A stretch of 64,000 nucleotides of DNA from Pseudomonadota bacterium. GTDB taxonomy: Bacteria > Pseudomonadota > Alphaproteobacteria > Acetobacterales > Acetobacteraceae. The DNA lies in assembly GCA_021845595.1 (NCBI GenBank), contig JAJZVV010000007.1, positions 1 to 64,000 of the forward strand, read 5' to 3'. Below, one piece after another: positions 156-62,261 of this stretch. The translations under genes and the position numbers were made by a program. The notes beneath the pieces were generated by a model. That model made no database searches. It was not told the DNA's origin and saw only the letters and a program-made list of their open reading frames with translations. Within the stretch, counting starts at the first letter, position 1; the number at the start of each line of letters is the position of its first letter.

Positions 156-1760
156 TCAGGGATCAAGCAGCACCCCGGGATTGAGCAGCCCGCTCGGGTC
201 GAGCGCGCGCTTGGCGGCGGACAGCGCGGCGGCGAAGAGGTCGGGGCGCTGGCGATCATACCAGGGGCGGTGATCGCGGCCGACGGCGTGGTGATGGGTG
301 ATGGTGCCGCCGGCTTCGATGAGCGCGTCGGAGGCGGCGTTCTTGATCGCGCGCCACTGTTCGATCAGGGCCTCGGGCGGGCGGCCGGGGGCGCCGAGCG
401 CGTGGAAGGTGAAATAGGGTGCGGGTCCGTCCGGATAGGCGTGAGTGAAGCGGCAGGTCACCTGCCCGGGCCGGCCGGTGGCCTCGCGGATCGCCGCCTC
501 GGTCGCCGTCGTGACCGCGGCGTGGAAGGCCTCGAACCGGTCCCAGGTGATCGCGGTCTCGAACGTGTCGTTGATGACACCCCAGCCGACCGTGTGTTCG
601 CGCAGATAGGGCATGCGGATGAAGGCGGTGCGCCAGCGCTCGGCGGCGCCTTCGCGATGGGCGTCGGCGGCATCGGTCTCCGGCCGGCCGCCGTGGTCGG
701 CGCAGCATTCCAGCGCGCGGGCCATCCAGGCGTCGAGCGCATGGTCGCCCGATTCGAAGCCCAGCACCATGATCGCGACGCTACCGTCGGCAGCACCGGT
801 GTTGAGCGCCTCCTGCGGGTCGAGAATGCGGCAATTCGCTGGGTACAGACCGGCCTGGAGCAGCGCCCGCACGGCGCGGGCGGCGGCGAGGAAGTCCGGA
901 AACCGCACCGCACCGCCGGCGCGGAAGCGTGGCCGGTCCTGCAGCCGCATCCATGCCTCGGTGATGACGCCGAGAATACCCTCCGAGCCGATGAACAGCC
1001 GGTCCGGGCTCGGCCCGGCGCCGGAGCCGGGCAGCCGGCGAGTCTCCAGCGCCCCGGCCGGCGTGATGACGCGGACGCTCTCGACCATGTCATCGATATG
1101 GGTGAGGTGCGTGGCGTAATGCCCGCCCGAGCGGGTGGCGATCCAGCCACCAAGGGTGGAATATTCGAAACTCTGCGGAAAATGGCGCAACGTCAGCGCG
1201 TGGGGACGAAGCTGCGCCTCCAGCGCGGGGCCGAAAATGCCGCCCTCGATCCGCGCCGCGCGCGACGCCCGATCGACCTCCAGCACCCGGTCGAAATGGC
1301 GCAGATCGAGCGAGACGGCGCCGTGGTAGCGCTTCGAGTCGAGCCGCGGCTCGACTCCGCCGACCACGGAGGAGCCGGCTCCGAAGGGGATCAGCGCCGC
1401 CTGTGCCCCGCCGGCCCAATCCATCACGGCGGCGAGTTCGGCTTCGTTGCGCGGGTAGGCGACGAGGTCCGGGGCGTTGGCATAGTCGCCGAGCAACCCG
1501 CGCACCGTGTCGGGGTAGGATTTGCCGTAGGTGTGGGCGGCGCGATCATATGTCCCGGCCGTGCAGATCGCGGCGAGCGTGGCCGGCGGGGTGAGGCGCG
1601 AGGCCGGCAGCGTCAGGGCATCGAGCGACGGCGCCGCCCGCTCGGGGAAGCCGTCGGCGTGGAAGCGGGCCGCGTAGCGGCGGCGCACCGCGGCCAACTC
1701 CTCCGCGCTTGCGCCCTCGCCCTCGCGCCCCCAGCCGAAATGCTTGAGCCGTGCCGTCAT
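156..1760 (-). CDS. FAD-linked oxidase, alkylglycerone-phosphate-synthase-like
   Basis: This 534-residue protein has the PCMH/VAO FAD-binding fold. A PFGAGSSVVGG stretch lies at about residues 125-135, where the FAD pyrophosphate is held. A glycine-rich IGSEGILGVIT segment follows, and a C-terminal FAD-oxidase domain ends with HHHAVGRDH near residue 489. The triple-His motif is typical of alkyl-dihydroxyacetonephosphate synthase relatives. No ether-lipid genes are adjacent, so the substrate is unknown. An in-frame ATG 18 codons upstream exists, but the ATG at 1760 is preceded by GGGAGG at good spacing and starts the conserved part. It may be a D-2-hydroxyacid or glycolate-type oxidase instead. 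The family assignment is firm and the reaction is not. Confidence 0.85.
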   Translation of the reverse strand: MTARLKHFGWGREGEGASAEELAAVRRRYAARFHADGFPERAAPSLDALTLPASRLTPPATLAAICTAGTYDRAAHTYGKSYPDTVRGLLGDYANAPDLVAYPRNEAELAAVMDWAGGAQAALIPFGAGSSVVGGVEPRLDSKRYHGAVSLDLRHFDRVLEVDRASRAARIEGGIFGPALEAQLRPHALTLRHFPQSFEYSTLGGWIATRSGGHYATHLTHIDDMVESVRVITPAGALETRRLPGSGAGPSPDRLFIGSEGILGVITEAWMRLQDRPRFRAGGAVRFPDFLAAARAVRALLQAGLYPANCRILDPQEALNTGAADGSVAIMVLGFESGDHALDAWMARALECCADHGGRPETDAADAHREGAAERWRTAFIRMPYLREHTVGWGVINDTFETAITWDRFEAFHAAVTTATEAAIREATGRPGQVTCRFTHAYPDGPAPYFTFHALGAPGRPPEALIEQWRAIKNAASDALIEAGGTITHHHAVGRDHRPWYDRQRPDLFAAALSAAKRALDPSGLLNPGVLLDP

Positions 1761-29976: not shown

Positions 29977-31341
29977 TCAGCCCAATGCGACAGCGGCCAG
30001 ACCGACCGGTGGGGGTGGCACCCGCGTACCCTGCGCCGCGTAGTCGCGCAGCTTGTTGCGCAACGCACGAATGGAGATGCCAAGGATGGTGGCGGCATGC
30101 GTGCGATTGCCGAGCGTGTGCGCAAGTGTTTCCAGGATGAGCTCGCGTTCGACCTGCTCCATAGTCTTGCCGACCAGCGCGGTGACAGGGCCGCCGGACA
30201 AGTCATTGCGCGCGCCGTCCGGAGCGGCCATGGCGGACGGCACCGCTCCCGGCAGCTCGAAGGCCCCGCGGTCGATCTCCTCGCCCTCGGCCAGAAGCAC
30301 CGCGCGATGCATCGCGTTCTCCAATTCACGGACATTGCCACGCCACGGAAGGCCGGCGAGCAGAGCGTGGGCCGCCGACGAGACCGGGCGGAACGGCAAG
30401 CCGTTCACCTCGGCATAGTGACGCGCGAAATGATCTGCGAGCGCGGCGATGTCCCCCGGCCGCTCGCGCAGCGGCGGAACACGCACGGCGATGACGTTGA
30501 GCCGGAAAAACAGATCCTCGCGAAATCGCCCGGCGGCGACCTCGGCCGGCAGGTCGCGGTTGGTCGTAGCGAGGAGCCGAACATTGATGCGCACCGGGGC
30601 CGTGCCGCCGAGCCGGTCGATCTCGCGTTCCTGCACCGCGCGCAGCAATTTCGCCTGGAGGCGAATGTCCATCTCGCTGATCTCGTCGAGCAGCAGCGTG
30701 CCACCTTCAGCGGCTTCGAATTTGCCGATCCGGCGGGCGACGGCGCCGGAAAACGCGCCCTTCTCGTGGCCGAACAGCTCCGATTCCAATAGTTGCTCGG
30801 GGATCGCGGCGCAGTTCAGCGCCACGAACGGCCCGCCGGCACGCCGTGAGCGGCGATGGATGTGCCGCGCCAGAACCTCCTTGCCGGTTCCCGACTCCCC
30901 GCTGATCAGGACCGAGGCTTCCGCCGTCGCCACCTGCTGGGCACGACGCACCGTGGCCGCCATCGCCGGATCCCGCACGATCAGCGTATGGCTCTCGCCG
31001 GCGGCGGCAGCGAGGATCGCGGCAATGAGGTCCGGATCCGGCGGCAGCGGCAGGAATTCGCGCGCACCCTCCCGGACCGCGCGCGCCGCCGCCTCGGCCT
31101 CGCAATCGACACCGCAGGCGACCACCGGCGCGGCGATCCGCTCGCTCGCCATCGCGCGCACCAGCGCACCCACGTCGAAATCGATGTCGCAGAGGACGAT
31201 GTCGACATGCGCATCGGCGCGAAGCCGCGTCAGCCCCTGGGCGGGATCGTCCGCCTGCTCCAGCCGCGCGCCGCGGCCGATCGCCATCCGCGCCGCCTGG
31301 CCTAGCTCGCCCGCCAGCGAACCGATGATCAGCACACGCAT
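29977..31341 (-). CDS. flbD: FlbD-type sigma-54 transcription activator
   Basis: A 454-residue NtrC-family regulator. The receiver (1-115) keeps the acceptor Asp52 but lacks the usual N-terminal acidic pair (it reads VLIIGS), so it is degenerate. The AAA+ domain (about 120-345) has Walker A GESGTGKE and Walker B GGTLLLDEI. The sigma-54 contact loop is GAFSGA instead of the canonical GAFTGA. The C-terminal Fis-type helix-turn-helix contains NRTHAATILGISIRALRNKL. It follows fliN in the fliF operon, as in Caulobacter. It is the likely activator of the -24/-12 promoters at flgE, fliK, flbT and 61643. Confidence 0.93.
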   Translation of the reverse strand: MRVLIIGSLAGELGQAARMAIGRGARLEQADDPAQGLTRLRADAHVDIVLCDIDFDVGALVRAMASERIAAPVVACGVDCEAEAAARAVREGAREFLPLPPDPDLIAAILAAAAGESHTLIVRDPAMAATVRRAQQVATAEASVLISGESGTGKEVLARHIHRRSRRAGGPFVALNCAAIPEQLLESELFGHEKGAFSGAVARRIGKFEAAEGGTLLLDEISEMDIRLQAKLLRAVQEREIDRLGGTAPVRINVRLLATTNRDLPAEVAAGRFREDLFFRLNVIAVRVPPLRERPGDIAALADHFARHYAEVNGLPFRPVSSAAHALLAGLPWRGNVRELENAMHRAVLLAEGEEIDRGAFELPGAVPSAMAAPDGARNDLSGGPVTALVGKTMEQVERELILETLAHTLGNRTHAATILGISIRALRNKLRDYAAQGTRVPPPPVGLAAVALG

Positions 31342-35155: not shown

Positions 35156-35170
35156 CGGCAGGAACTGCCG
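35156..35170. promoter_or_regulatory. GGCA-N5-TGCC palindrome, FlbD enhancer-like, at fliF
   Basis: CGGCA-GGAAC-TGCCG lies 5 bp from the CtrA-like site. It has the same core as the paired palindromes at 37479 and 61564. By analogy with Caulobacter, FlbD bound here could repress the fliF operon. Confidence 0.45.
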
Positions 35171-37478: not shown

Positions 37479-37507
37479 CGGCAAATTCTGCCCGGCGAAA
37501 CCTGCCG
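37479..37507. promoter_or_regulatory. Tandem GGCA-N5-TGCC palindromes, candidate FlbD enhancer
   Basis: CGGCA-AATTC-TGCCC (37479-37493) and CGGCG-AAACC-TGCCG (37493-37507) share one base, giving a 14-bp period. An identical arrangement occurs at 61564-61592. They lie about 100-125 bp from the flgE -24/-12 element and 60-90 bp from the fliK one. Confidence 0.5.
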
Positions 37508-42169: not shown

Positions 42170-42937
42170 TTACGCCAGCAGCGATAGCGATCCACTGCTC
42201 GAAGAACCCGCGCCGAACAGGTCCAGCACCGTCGCCGGCGCGTTGGAGGCTGGCGGATTCTGCTGAGCCAGCGCCAGATAGTGCTCGACATATTGCTTGA
42301 CGTAGTCCGGGTTCTGGAACTTCGTCACATCCACCGCCTTGGTCAGAATCGCCTGCTGCTGCGTGAAGCCGAGCAGGCCGAACTGCACCGGCTGGCCAGT
42401 GACCGTCTCGACGACGCTGAGCAGCGTCTGGTCCGACATGATGGCATCGATGCTGGTGGCGGAGGCAATGGTGCGGGCGAAATAGAGCGCCTGTTGCATG
42501 CCGGGCATCTGCTGGCCCTGTTGCTGCTCGAACTGGTTCGTTTGGTACTGGCTGACGATCGTCTGCACCGTCTGCGCATTGGCCAGCGGCGAGGTCGTCC
42601 AGTTGGACATGAACTGGGCGAACCGCTGATACACCGGGTTGGCCGATTGCTGGGCGAAGGATTTCGGATCGGACGGGTTCTGCGTCATCAGATCCTTCAG
42701 CAGCCCGGTCTCGCCGATCTGCCCGCTCATGCCGAAGGCGCCCAGCACCACCTGCAACGAGCGATAATCCTTCAGCAGCGCCGCGGGCGAGGTGATGGTC
42801 GGCGCCTGCTTCTGGAAATAGGCGATGGCCGCCTGGCCCGCCGGGTCCGTCTTCGCCATCTTGGCGACATAGGCGGGCTCGTTCTTAGTGATGGCGAGAT
42901 ACATCGGGATCGGCGCGAGGCCAGCGATGCCGGACAT
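42170..42937 (-). CDS. DUF1217-type flagellar-associated protein
   Basis: A 255-residue protein rich in Gln, Ala and Thr, with no signal peptide or membrane segment. The blocks ALLKDYRSLQVVLGAFGMSG, RIAQ-like segment QRFAQFMSNW and VKQYVEHYLALAQQNPPASN resemble the DUF1217 proteins found in alphaproteobacterial flagellar clusters. Some of these are needed for motility, but the role is unknown. The composition suits an exported flagellar component. AAGGAG precedes the ATG at 42937. A near-sigma-54 sequence (TGGCACGGGGTAGGGT) lies about 60 bp upstream but lacks the -12 GC. Confidence 0.75.
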   Translation of the reverse strand: MSGIAGLAPIPMYLAITKNEPAYVAKMAKTDPAGQAAIAYFQKQAPTITSPAALLKDYRSLQVVLGAFGMSGQIGETGLLKDLMTQNPSDPKSFAQQSANPVYQRFAQFMSNWTTSPLANAQTVQTIVSQYQTNQFEQQQGQQMPGMQQALYFARTIASATSIDAIMSDQTLLSVVETVTGQPVQFGLLGFTQQQAILTKAVDVTKFQNPDYVKQYVEHYLALAQQNPPASNAPATVLDLFGAGSSSSGSLSLLA

Positions 42938-43014
42938 CAAGGCGTCTCCTTCGTCTCAAAACCAGGACGAAATTTGCGGTTCGGGGCGATTTTTTGACCC
43001 TACCCCGTGCCAGC

Positions 43015-43101: not shown

Positions 43102-44334
43102 ATGTCCTTTTCGGTCAACACGAACCTCGCCTCCCTCGCCGCGCTGCAGACGCTCAACATGACCGAGCAGATGCTGACGCAGACGCAGAACGTGATTTCC
43201 ACCGGCCAGAGCGTCTCGTCGGCCCAGGATAATCCCGCGCTGTATTCCATTTCCAACACCATTCAAGCCAGCATCGCCAGCCTCACGGCGGTGCAGAACA
43301 ATCTCTCCTTCGGCCAGTCCACGCTCGGCGTCGCCAGCAACGCCGCGTCGCAGATTTCCAGCCAGCTCGCCACTCTGCAGCAGACGGTGACCCAGGCCGA
43401 TCAGGCGGGCATCAGCCCGACCACGATGCAGAACCAGGTCAATGCGATTCTGACCAATATCAATCAGTTCGCCACCACGGCCACGTTCAATGGCGTCAAC
43501 CTGCTCGATAATGTAACGACGTCCCGGCTGAACATCGTCCAGGATACGATTGGCAATAGCATCGCCGTCACCAACCAGAACGCGACCACAACCGGGCTTG
43601 GCCTCACCGGCCTGTCGGTAACCGGTAGCAACATGACGTTCGCCGGCCTGGCCAATCAGGCAACGGCCGCCGGCGACACGCTCATCTTCAAGGGGGCCGG
43701 CCAGACCAATACTACCTTGACCACATACACGTTCACTTTCGCGACCTCAGGGAACAACGGCGCGGTGTCGGGCGGGGGAACATCCGCCGTCGGCGTCAAC
43801 GTCGTCATCGGCCCCTCCCAGGCTGCGACGATGTCGAATCTGATTTCGGCTATCCAGGGCATCCAAGGTAACGTGCCAAGCACCGGATCGGCAGTGACGC
43901 CGCAAGGCCAGATGTTCAGCGCGACACTCGACACTGCCGGAAATCTCGTCGTTGCATCGAACTCGACGGCGTCGACCTCCGCGCTGAGCGCCGGATCGTA
44001 CACCCCGGCTACCGCTACCGCGACCGATGCAGCAATTACCGGAACGGCCGGCACCAGCGCGCAGCAGGCCATCCTCATCGTCCAGAACGCCATCACGCTG
44101 ATGAACGCAAAGGCCGCCGTGCTCGGCAGCGCCGAGCAGCAGGTCACCGGGTTGCAGAACTTCAACACGCAGCTCAGTGCCAGCTTCACCTCCGGCGTCG
44201 GCGCGCTGACGGACGCCAACATGGCGGCCGAGAGTGCGCAGCTCGCCTCGCTGCAGACCAAGCAGCAGCTCGGCATCCAGTCGCTCTCCATGGCGAATGC
44301 CCGGCCGCAGATGATGCTGCAGCTCTTCCGCTGA
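43102..44334 (+). CDS. fliC: Flagellin
   Basis: A 410-residue filament protein. The conserved N-terminal D0/D1 region (1-140) reads NTNLASLAALQTLNMTEQML and later NPALYSISNTIQASIASL. A variable Thr/Gly/Ala-rich centre (about 180-320) contains no cysteine. The C-terminal D1/D0 helices include SAEQQVTGLQNFNTQL and AESAQLASLQTKQQLGIQSL. It is exported without a signal peptide. The leader contains an inverted repeat. FlaF follows 85 bp downstream. It is the only flagellin in this window. Confidence 0.96.
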   Translation: MSFSVNTNLASLAALQTLNMTEQMLTQTQNVISTGQSVSSAQDNPALYSISNTIQASIASLTAVQNNLSFGQSTLGVASNAASQISSQLATLQQTVTQADQAGISPTTMQNQVNAILTNINQFATTATFNGVNLLDNVTTSRLNIVQDTIGNSIAVTNQNATTTGLGLTGLSVTGSNMTFAGLANQATAAGDTLIFKGAGQTNTTLTTYTFTFATSGNNGAVSGGGTSAVGVNVVIGPSQAATMSNLISAIQGIQGNVPSTGSAVTPQGQMFSATLDTAGNLVVASNSTASTSALSAGSYTPATATATDAAITGTAGTSAQQAILIVQNAITLMNAKAAVLGSAEQQVTGLQNFNTQLSASFTSGVGALTDANMAAESAQLASLQTKQQLGIQSLSMANARPQMMLQLFR

Positions 44335-61077: not shown

Positions 61078-61518
61078 TCAGCGACGTTCGGCGAAGAACG
61101 CGCGCAGCAGGTCGCCCGCCTCGGTCTCGCGCACCCCGCCGACGACCTCGGGCGCATGGTGGCAGGAGCGAGCAGCGAACACCCGCGCGCCGTGCTCGAC
61201 GCCGCCGCTCTTCGGATCATAGGCGCCGAACACCAGGCGACGGACGCGGAACAGGCTCGCCGCCTGGGCGCACATCGGACAGGGTTCGAGGGTCACGAAC
61301 AGGTCGCACCCTTCCAGCCGCGGCCGGGCGAGCCGGGACGCGGCAGCGCGCAGGGCGATCAGCTCGGCATGGGCGGCGGCATCGTGGCCGGCCTCGACAG
61401 CGTTGCCGGCCTGCGCCAGCACTGCCCCATCCGGGCCGATCACCACCGCCCCCACCGGCACCTCGCCGCGCGCGGCGGCGGCGCGGGCTTCGGCGAGGGC
61501 GAGGTCCATGGGCGTCAT
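61078..61518 (-). CDS. tadA: tRNA adenosine(34) deaminase TadA
   Basis: A 146-residue zinc deaminase that makes inosine at the tRNA wobble position. His50 and Glu52 (HAEL) with Cys80 and Cys83 (EPCPMC) form the zinc site. The FGAYDPKSGGVEHG region is a TadA hallmark. It starts 167 bp from the divergent Ala/Ser/His-rich gene at 61686. Confidence 0.95.
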   Translation of the reverse strand: MTPMDLALAEARAAAARGEVPVGAVVIGPDGAVLAQAGNAVEAGHDAAAHAELIALRAAASRLARPRLEGCDLFVTLEPCPMCAQAASLFRVRRLVFGAYDPKSGGVEHGARVFAARSCHHAPEVVGGVRETEAGDLLRAFFAERR

Positions 61519-61563: not shown

Positions 61564-61592
61564 GGGCAGAAACTGCCCGGCACGCGATGCCG
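61564..61592. promoter_or_regulatory. Tandem GGCA-N5-TGCC palindromes, candidate FlbD enhancer
   Basis: GGGCA-GAAAC-TGCCC (61564-61578) and CGGCA-CGCGA-TGCCG (61578-61592) share one base, giving a 14-bp period. The pair at 37479-37507 has the same geometry. The left edge of the sigma-54 promoter is 51 bp downstream. Confidence 0.5.
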
Positions 61593-61642
61593 GGTGCGGC
61601 CCATCCTACCGGGCATCGGCTCGGGATTCCGTCATGTTCGGG

Positions 61643-61658
61643 TGGCACGCGGCTTGCT
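61643..61658 (+). promoter_or_regulatory. Sigma-54 (-24/-12) promoter of the Ala/Ser/His-rich gene
   Basis: TGGCACGCGGCTTGCT is a perfect match to TGGCACG-N4-TTGCW. The -12 GC lies 29 bp upstream of the ATG at 61686. Confidence 0.8.
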
Positions 61659-61685
61659 GCGGGAGAACGCGTCCAACCTGGAGCC

Positions 61686-62261
61686 ATGACCATGTCCCTG
61701 AGCCTGTCCGCCCTCTCCTCGTGGTGGCCGCCGAGCAGCAGCGCGGCGGGCGCAGCCCCCAGCGCCGCGTCCACGGCCGCCGCCGCCGGAACGGGCCCGA
61801 CGAGCCAGTCGTCCGAGGCGTCGGCATCGCAGTCGGCCGGCAGCTCGTCCGCGGCATCCGCGGCCGGCGCCGGCTCCATCAATCTGTTCCAGCAGCTCGC
61901 CGCCGTCATGCAGGCGGCTCTGATCCAGATGCAGAGCGCTGCCTCCGGCAGCGCCGCTCAGTCCACGGCCTCCGGCGCCAATTTGACGGCTACGGGGACG
62001 AGCGGGTCGACGCAAATCGGCACCAGCACCAGTATCGGCGGGCAGCTCGCCAGCCTGGGCTCGGCCGCGCCACATCACCATCACCACATGAGCGGCGCGG
62101 ACGGTGACGGCGATGGCAGCGGGTCGAGCGCCACCAGCGCCGCGAGCGCGGCCAACGCCAACTCAGCCACGGGCGTCACCGGCAGCCTGACGCAGGCGAT
62201 TCAATCCTATGCCGGCTCCGCCGCGTCCGGCCTCACCACCACGGCCTCGTCTCTCGCCTGA
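61686..62261 (+). CDS. Ala/Ser/Thr/Gly-rich protein with His and Asp/Gly tracts, sigma-54 controlled
   Basis: A 191-residue low-complexity protein with no cysteine, no signal peptide and no membrane helix. About two-thirds of residues are Ala, Ser, Gly or Thr. A helical INLFQQLAAVMQAALIQMQS lies in the middle. A five-His run is followed by GADGDGDGSG, which resembles an EF-hand calcium loop. The composition is like the exported flagellar proteins FlgD and FlgE. GGAG lies just upstream of the ATG. A perfect sigma-54 promoter and a paired palindrome like those at flgE/fliK precede it. I do not recognise a family. A hairpin follows. Confidence 0.75.
   Translation: MTMSLSLSALSSWWPPSSSAAGAAPSAASTAAAAGTGPTSQSSEASASQSAGSSSAASAAGAGSINLFQQLAAVMQAALIQMQSAASGSAAQSTASGANLTATGTSGSTQIGTSTSIGGQLASLGSAAPHHHHHMSGADGDGDGSGSSATSAASAANANSATGVTGSLTQAIQSYAGSAASGLTTTASSLA

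Follow-up and report, generated by a model that had tools for sequence, protein, structure and literature searches.

The control region described here is closest to that of the class III-IV flagellar genes of Caulobacter, for which passages of two studies describe how FlbD, acting under FliX, uses ftr sites to activate sigma-54-dependent hook and flagellin genes after the early structure has formed (PMC3930126, PMC3096577). The Caulobacter RpoN motif appears in a passage of a further study as GGCNC-N4-CTTGC (PMC4287350). As to the encoded protein, the nearest comparison is with early substrates of flagellar export, above all FlgD. In the portions of PMC8983047 that deal with FlgD export, early substrates are described as needing a small nonpolar N-terminal signal (SIAV), and a hydrophobic gate recognition motif (FLTLL in FlgD) as docking at FlhB; the two lie at least 19 residues apart in FlgD, and the stretch between them can be replaced by polar repeats.

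Here we describe gene A, which lies in a 64,000-nucleotide stretch of DNA (the window, contig C46 among the 50 of a 3.6-Mb genome; C, G and L numbers denote contigs, genomes and loci). Like the Caulobacter genes, gene A has a sigma-54 box that also fits the RpoN motif and palindromic sites upstream of it, FlbD is encoded in the same genome, and sister elements precede hook, rod and P-ring genes; unlike them, it does not encode any known flagellar part, and its locus lies about 17 kb from the flagellar cluster, a distance that the original prediction had given correctly (the flagellin ORF ends at 44334). The sites are called 'ftr-like' here after their palindromic form and upstream position. 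What is new is that gene A, judged by its sequence relatives, belongs to a family that is recurrently linked to a flagellar control element.

Gene A and its control region

The features of the locus are collected in Table 1. Translation of gene A is likelier to start at 61692 than at 61686, since the in-frame first ATG is absent from the same-genus orthologue, 12 of 13 aligned members have an MS start, and the GGAG is, by eye, better placed for the downstream codon. None of the genes around gene A gave a flagellar match, and neither a tRNA nor an Rfam match was found near it.

Table 1. Coordinates of gene A, its control elements and related features of the window
Feature	Position	Strand	Basis or remark
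flbD, presumed activator	29977..31341	-	Best match of the NF050807 model (E 6.6e-205); its 681 bits fall short of the curated cut-off of 750
Comparable tandem, fliK/flgE divergent control region	37480..37506	.	One mismatch; fliK and flgE named by eye
Divergent neighbour, TadA-kind deaminase, non-flagellar	61078..61518	-	Pfam/NCBIfam search
ftr-like site 1, GGCAGAAACTGCC, presumed FlbD enhancer	61565..61577	.	GGCC, one mismatch, in two other species
ftr-like site 2, GGCACGCGATGCC	61579..61591	.	Half-sites kept, spacer differs among three species
Sigma-54 -24/-12 box, TGGCACGCGGCTTGC	61643..61657	+	Exact; T at 61658
Gene A, 189-aa, Ala/Ser/Gly/Thr-rich (70%), Cys-free protein	61692..62261	+	Alternative first ATG 61686
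N-terminal MSLSLSAL, possible hydrophobic export signal (relatives MSISSIAS, MSIGSIAS)	61692..61715	+	A6 alignment; putative role after passages of PMC8983047
Core helix, FQQLAAVMQAALIQMQ, possible FlhB-docking motif	61887..61934	+	No amino-acid change between gene A and its orthologue
HHHHH run	62073..62087	+	A6, 13 rows: two His columns invariant, one nearly so
DGDGDG segment	62100..62117	+	Similar acidic run in L272; not general in A6
C-terminal motif LTQAIQSY (relatives QALQAY)	62187..62210	+	A6 alignment

The original prediction described an exact sigma-54 box and paired GGCA-N5-TGCC palindromes upstream of gene A, and both are there, the palindromes with a 14-bp period and their 15-mers overlapping at the shared base C61578. 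It also claimed the same geometry for the flgE/fliK control region, where the geometry indeed matches but one half-site is off (GGCG). The genome carries 13 exact copies of the box and, with up to one mismatch, about as many boxes (110+122 matches) as reversed boxes (104+117), so that the box alone is no evidence; single GGCAN5TGCC sites likewise show no enrichment in the window, with 4 found where 2.2 are expected. Taken by themselves, these counts would suit promoter-like elements that had come together by chance in front of an ordinary low-complexity ORF. The exact tandem, on the other hand, occurs a single time in the 3.6-Mb genome. Tandems with one mismatch were found at C18:272985, upstream of a second gene (gene B), and at 37480 of the window (flgE), and three more places have two mismatches; since the six places found at this threshold compare with four for the reversed pattern, the two-mismatch places mean little alone. 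Of the inexact tandems, one precedes flgE, another gene B, and a third a flgF-type gene whose divergent neighbour is fliL-like. The signal is the combination of box and sites, rather than either part singly.

A same-genus orthologue of gene A (G001) is 77% identical to it and, as the original prediction had proposed to check, keeps the promoter, with one mismatch in the tandem and one in the box (TGGCATGGGGCTTGC). The comparison gives a dN of 0.145 and a dS of 0.321, and by these values the reading frame is under moderate constraint. All four tandem sites (those of gene A, flgE, the flgF/fliL-like pair and gene B) are present with at most two mismatches in the three species examined, in which tandem places at this threshold number 6, 5 and 7, against 4, 1 and 3 for the reversed control. 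Gene A itself is absent from the third species (G002, L021), which is best read as an assembly gap, since the contig stops about 10 bases behind the gene A tandem.

Gene B, the second orphan, encodes 131 aa on contig C18, and the gap between its tandem and its box, 51 bases, is identical to that of gene A. All three species conserve it, as does G091, a genome of another genus (E 2.7e-12), where gene B also has a tandem and a box. The gene B protein encoded at L239:203-601 in G250 reads identical to that of G002 (L023), and G250 is assigned to another genus than G002; the L239 contig is perhaps misplaced. G002 also holds a further tandem (one mismatch) and sigma-54 box before a short ORF (L025, about 1155-1527, minus strand) that adjoins a gene reading like a squalene-hopene cyclase.

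A single exact ftr-like site lies at 35157-35169 of the window, 118 bases upstream of the start of a fliF-like ORF (35039, minus strand); in Caulobacter, according to a passage of PMC3930126, fliF is repressed by FlbD via ftr4.

The element and FlbD across the Acetobacteraceae

A strict form of the element (GCCCGGCA-N5-TGCC, then 38-75 bases, then TGGCAY-N6-TGC) was found in 113 of 397 Acetobacteraceae genomes, belonging to 48 of 102 genera, and the reversed pattern in none of the 397. By this distribution the element is real, and the same counts argue against a chance origin of the gene A promoter.

The loci that were read comprised all listed strict places except G275:C33, which lies at a contig end, together with 30 loci and 40 places chosen by eye from a longer list obtained with a looser pattern. 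They yielded 151 distinct elements (L073-L250, 127 of them strict; L103 is the sole representative of gene A's own genus), and because of the choice by eye the gene counts that follow describe a non-random sample. Script calls placed 41 of these elements before flgI, 29 before flgE-like, 13 before flgF and 26 before other rod/hook-type genes, 109 of 151 altogether, and left 42 unclassified. Inspection by eye of the 42 revealed 24 small orphan proteins (9 gene-A-like, 7 gene-B-like and 8 of a type C), one gene each of the flgE, flgI and fliL kinds that the script had missed, three FliK-like proteins, three of a conserved type, one DUF1217-like protein, one GGDEF protein (Pfam), three elements without a called ORF and four others.

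Several of these unclassified proteins merit separate description. The type C proteins, from eight genomes of genus g120 (L077, L151, L152, L154-L158), have 74-88 aa, a start like MILP..QPIAYAGG, a core like LQATLAQLQAT and a His-rich stretch. The conserved type, from three genomes of genus g70 (L195, L196, L197), contains FGE[FM]L[SA]ALNPLHHIP, and the L197 protein has no Pfam match. In G076 a GGDEF diguanylate cyclase (L127:565-1239, Pfam E 3.1e-38) lies directly behind a strict ftr/sigma-54 element, which suggests that c-di-GMP synthesis may be FlbD-timed in this genome. The flagellar cluster of the window encodes a DUF1217 protein (42170-42940, Pfam E 4.8e-39), and a protein similar to it by eye lies directly behind the element in G097 (L232).

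FlbD was scored at E<=1e-120, a level reached in 227 of the 397 genomes; none of these matches passes the curated cut-off, which the Caulobacter control does. A match is present in 102 of the 113 genomes with the strict element and in 125 of the 284 others (Fisher 8.5e-19). The 11 element genomes that lack a FlbD match at this level include G091, the source of the other-genus gene B.

A protein family behind the element

Because most of the earlier members had been found through the promoter, we searched the 397 genomes with the protein sequence alone. A profile of seven rows (A3) found 11 places outside the training genes, with E values from 7e-24 to 7e-4, and ten of them have the plan of gene A or part of it (L031, L257, L259, L260, L261, L262, L263, L264, L266 and L270; L266 is without the His run, and L270 has the start and the core only). 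Seven of the ten (L257, L260, L261, L262, L263, L264 and L270) are closely preceded by an exact ftr-like site and a box with no more than two mismatches, a combination that occurred at 200 of 20000 random positions in the examined loci, many of which carry elements, and at 0 of 20000 in reversed DNA. At L031 the box is present and the contig ends before the enhancer region. No element was found upstream of L259 and L266, which are distant and look like members. L263, the row of the A6 alignment nearest to gene A outside its own genus (44%), has two exact sites with the same 14-bp period. When the A6 profile was searched against 87 genomes across the class, it found one further member, L272 (E 6.6e-15), which comes from a different family and is preceded by two exact sites and a box with one mismatch. 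With the elements recovered in this way, and in another family too, a chance origin of the promoter is highly improbable; as far as the upstream regions tell, it is already disfavoured. The link between promoter and protein family is frequent, recurring across genera and in another family of bacteria on the evidence of these loci.

Two candidates were set aside as chance matches, namely L265, which encodes an unrelated longer protein, and L273, which encodes a different short one. L031, a weak match of the first profile, had been suspected of the same and proved to be a member.

The original prediction had assigned gene A to the FlbD regulon. The flbD gene in the window, the promoter of the orthologue and the seven of ten homologues found by protein all speak for this, and gene A is very probably under FlbD/sigma-54 control. 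FlbD is also matched in 14 of the 15 genomes that have a gene-A-type protein at E<=1e-5 (p 0.003, relative to its overall frequency), and the remaining genome is 75% complete. The family is sparse, and since only these 15 of the 397 genomes have a member at this threshold, a gene-A-type protein is not needed for a flagellum.

The A6 alignment of 13 rows reveals a common plan, not all four parts of which are present in every member. An MS[ILV]-like start is followed by a linker of Ser, Ala, Thr and Gly, a core like FQQLA-x-x-[LIM]Q-x-x-L-x-Q-x-Q, a His run and a QALQAY-like end. In the second half no feature is as constant as the His run, which recurs across genera; the DGDGDG segment is echoed in L272 and is not general. 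Among 28 members found promoter-first or in the same genus (10 of type A, 8 of type C and 10 of type B), a core pattern matched 16 and a C-terminal pattern 8, compared with 1 of 1732 background ORFs for each; both patterns were composed after the members had been seen, and many members miss one or both. In leave-one-genus-out profiles, L235, L244, L223, L218, L134 and L210 beat all 1000 local shuffles, L140 was matched by 16 of 1000, and L231 did no better than shuffles (112/1000). Gene A, scored with the first small profile from which its own genus was omitted, reached only 4.7 bits, a value equalled by 13 of 1000 local and 0 of 1000 full shuffles. We conclude that the gene-A-type proteins very probably form a true family. 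BLASTP between gene A and a gene B orthologue showed no useful similarity, and it is L264 and L270, in which a gene-B-type start is joined to a gene-A-type core, that connect the two types.

Gene A has no match in Pfam, NCBIfam or PHROGs and gene B none in Pfam or NCBIfam (Pfam and NCBIfam at E<=1), and the relatives tested against model libraries gave weak matches or none. A plasmid search with one member, L244, found no match. A PDB profile search at E<=1 gave 444 matches, the best of them at E 1.5e-4; the 60 that were listed, nanobodies and other constructs that align mostly at or near the His run, we took to be tag artefacts. In the open-licence literature, nothing was recognisable by title or abstract start as describing gene-A-type proteins. 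The statement in the original prediction that gene A has no recognised family is true of the three model libraries, but the gene has relatives and is not isolated. By these searches, the family is undescribed and was missed by the model libraries searched. Such proteins are easily overlooked because low-complexity sequence hides their homology; this family became visible through its promoter, and an anonymous low-complexity ORF is now a member of a family tied by promoter to a flagellar checkpoint.

Possible export and metal binding

In all 13 rows of A6, residues 2-8 hold two to four of ILVAM, a weak criterion, and the core begins at residue 47-87. The family thus resembles early export substrates, FlgD above all, in having a short hydrophobic N-terminus, a polar linker of more than 19 residues and, after it, a hydrophobic helical motif. 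It differs in that the core fits the F-x-x-x-hydrophobic docking motif only approximately (most rows have A or S at position 5), that gene A matches no FlgD, FlgE or rod model in Pfam, and that the FlgD of the window is not significantly similar to the family profile (hhalign E 0.095, probability 0.6%). The hydrophobic moments of six helix pieces showed no strong excess over shuffles (0.05-0.18). The AlphaFold model of gene A is poor (pLDDT 44, pTM 0.21) and contains two helices only, one of which, predicted with low confidence at residues 59-85, spans the core. Because the fit to the docking motif is rough and the similarity to FlgD non-significant, we infer export with restraint and put the chances that the gene A product leaves through the flagellum at about even.

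The same two short conserved helical segments in a small protein, under control of the kind that hook genes have, might instead belong to a cytoplasmic protein, controlled by FlbD, with a role like that of FliX, FlaF or FlgM, its helices binding a regulator or an assembly factor of the flagellum. This seems unlikely, given that the members vary in length (126-259 aa in A6) and in their linkers, that their distribution is sparse and that the His run is atypical; to our knowledge, such a run is unusual in FliX-, FlaF- or FlgM-like factors. A secreted or surface protein that shares FlbD timing, leaves by another route and serves a non-flagellar task, such as metal or pH handling or adhesion, would account for a locus away from the flagellar cluster, for the sparse distribution and for the recurrent His run. 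We regard it as less probable still, as no signal peptide is visible by eye and the N-terminus and linker are closer to those of rod and hook substrates.

On balance, we favour the reading that gene A encodes a FlbD/sigma-54-controlled accessory protein, from a family not previously described, that is perhaps exported as an early-type flagellar substrate. The element, the family and their frequent linkage are read from the sequence, and we infer FlbD binding, export and action as follows. In this view gene A, at its orphan locus, would behave as a class-III-like flagellar gene, with FlbD binding the tandem ftr-like sites and activating sigma-54 polymerase at 61643 and, on the Caulobacter model, doing so after the basal body is in place. 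Its product would be a disordered protein that exits unchaperoned through the flagellar type III channel, since the layout of its short hydrophobic N-terminus, polar linker and FQQLA...LQ..L helix is similar to that of the paired export signals in rod and hook substrates; the His run and the QALQAY-type C-terminal helix would then have their effect on the flagellum or in the surroundings of the cell. Export would make these proteins non-structural cargo of the flagellar channel whose timing is set by FlbD. A wider and speculative proposition, which we hold to be rather doubtful, is that this channel also serves, in the Acetobacteraceae and at least one other family of the class, to release a set of fast-evolving, disordered, His-rich proteins produced only after FlbD has signalled the readiness of the basal body; if true, the flagellum would have a second role in the timed secretion of non-structural proteins, which might respond to metals or to pH.

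EF-hand and other calcium-binding, Ser-rich small proteins of proteobacteria offer a further comparison. Gene A shares with them the Ser-rich linker, DGDGDG and a His-rich stretch, but it has no EF-hand match (no Pfam family at E<=1), and the acidic run is not general in its family; six other A-type members gave weak unrelated Pfam matches or none, and no EF-hand. The calcium- or metal-binding segment of the original prediction therefore fares unevenly, with the His run recurring across genera and the DGDGDG part not doing so. Metal binding by the gene A product is possible, with the balance somewhat against it, and it is the His run that suggests binding of metal or a response to pH.
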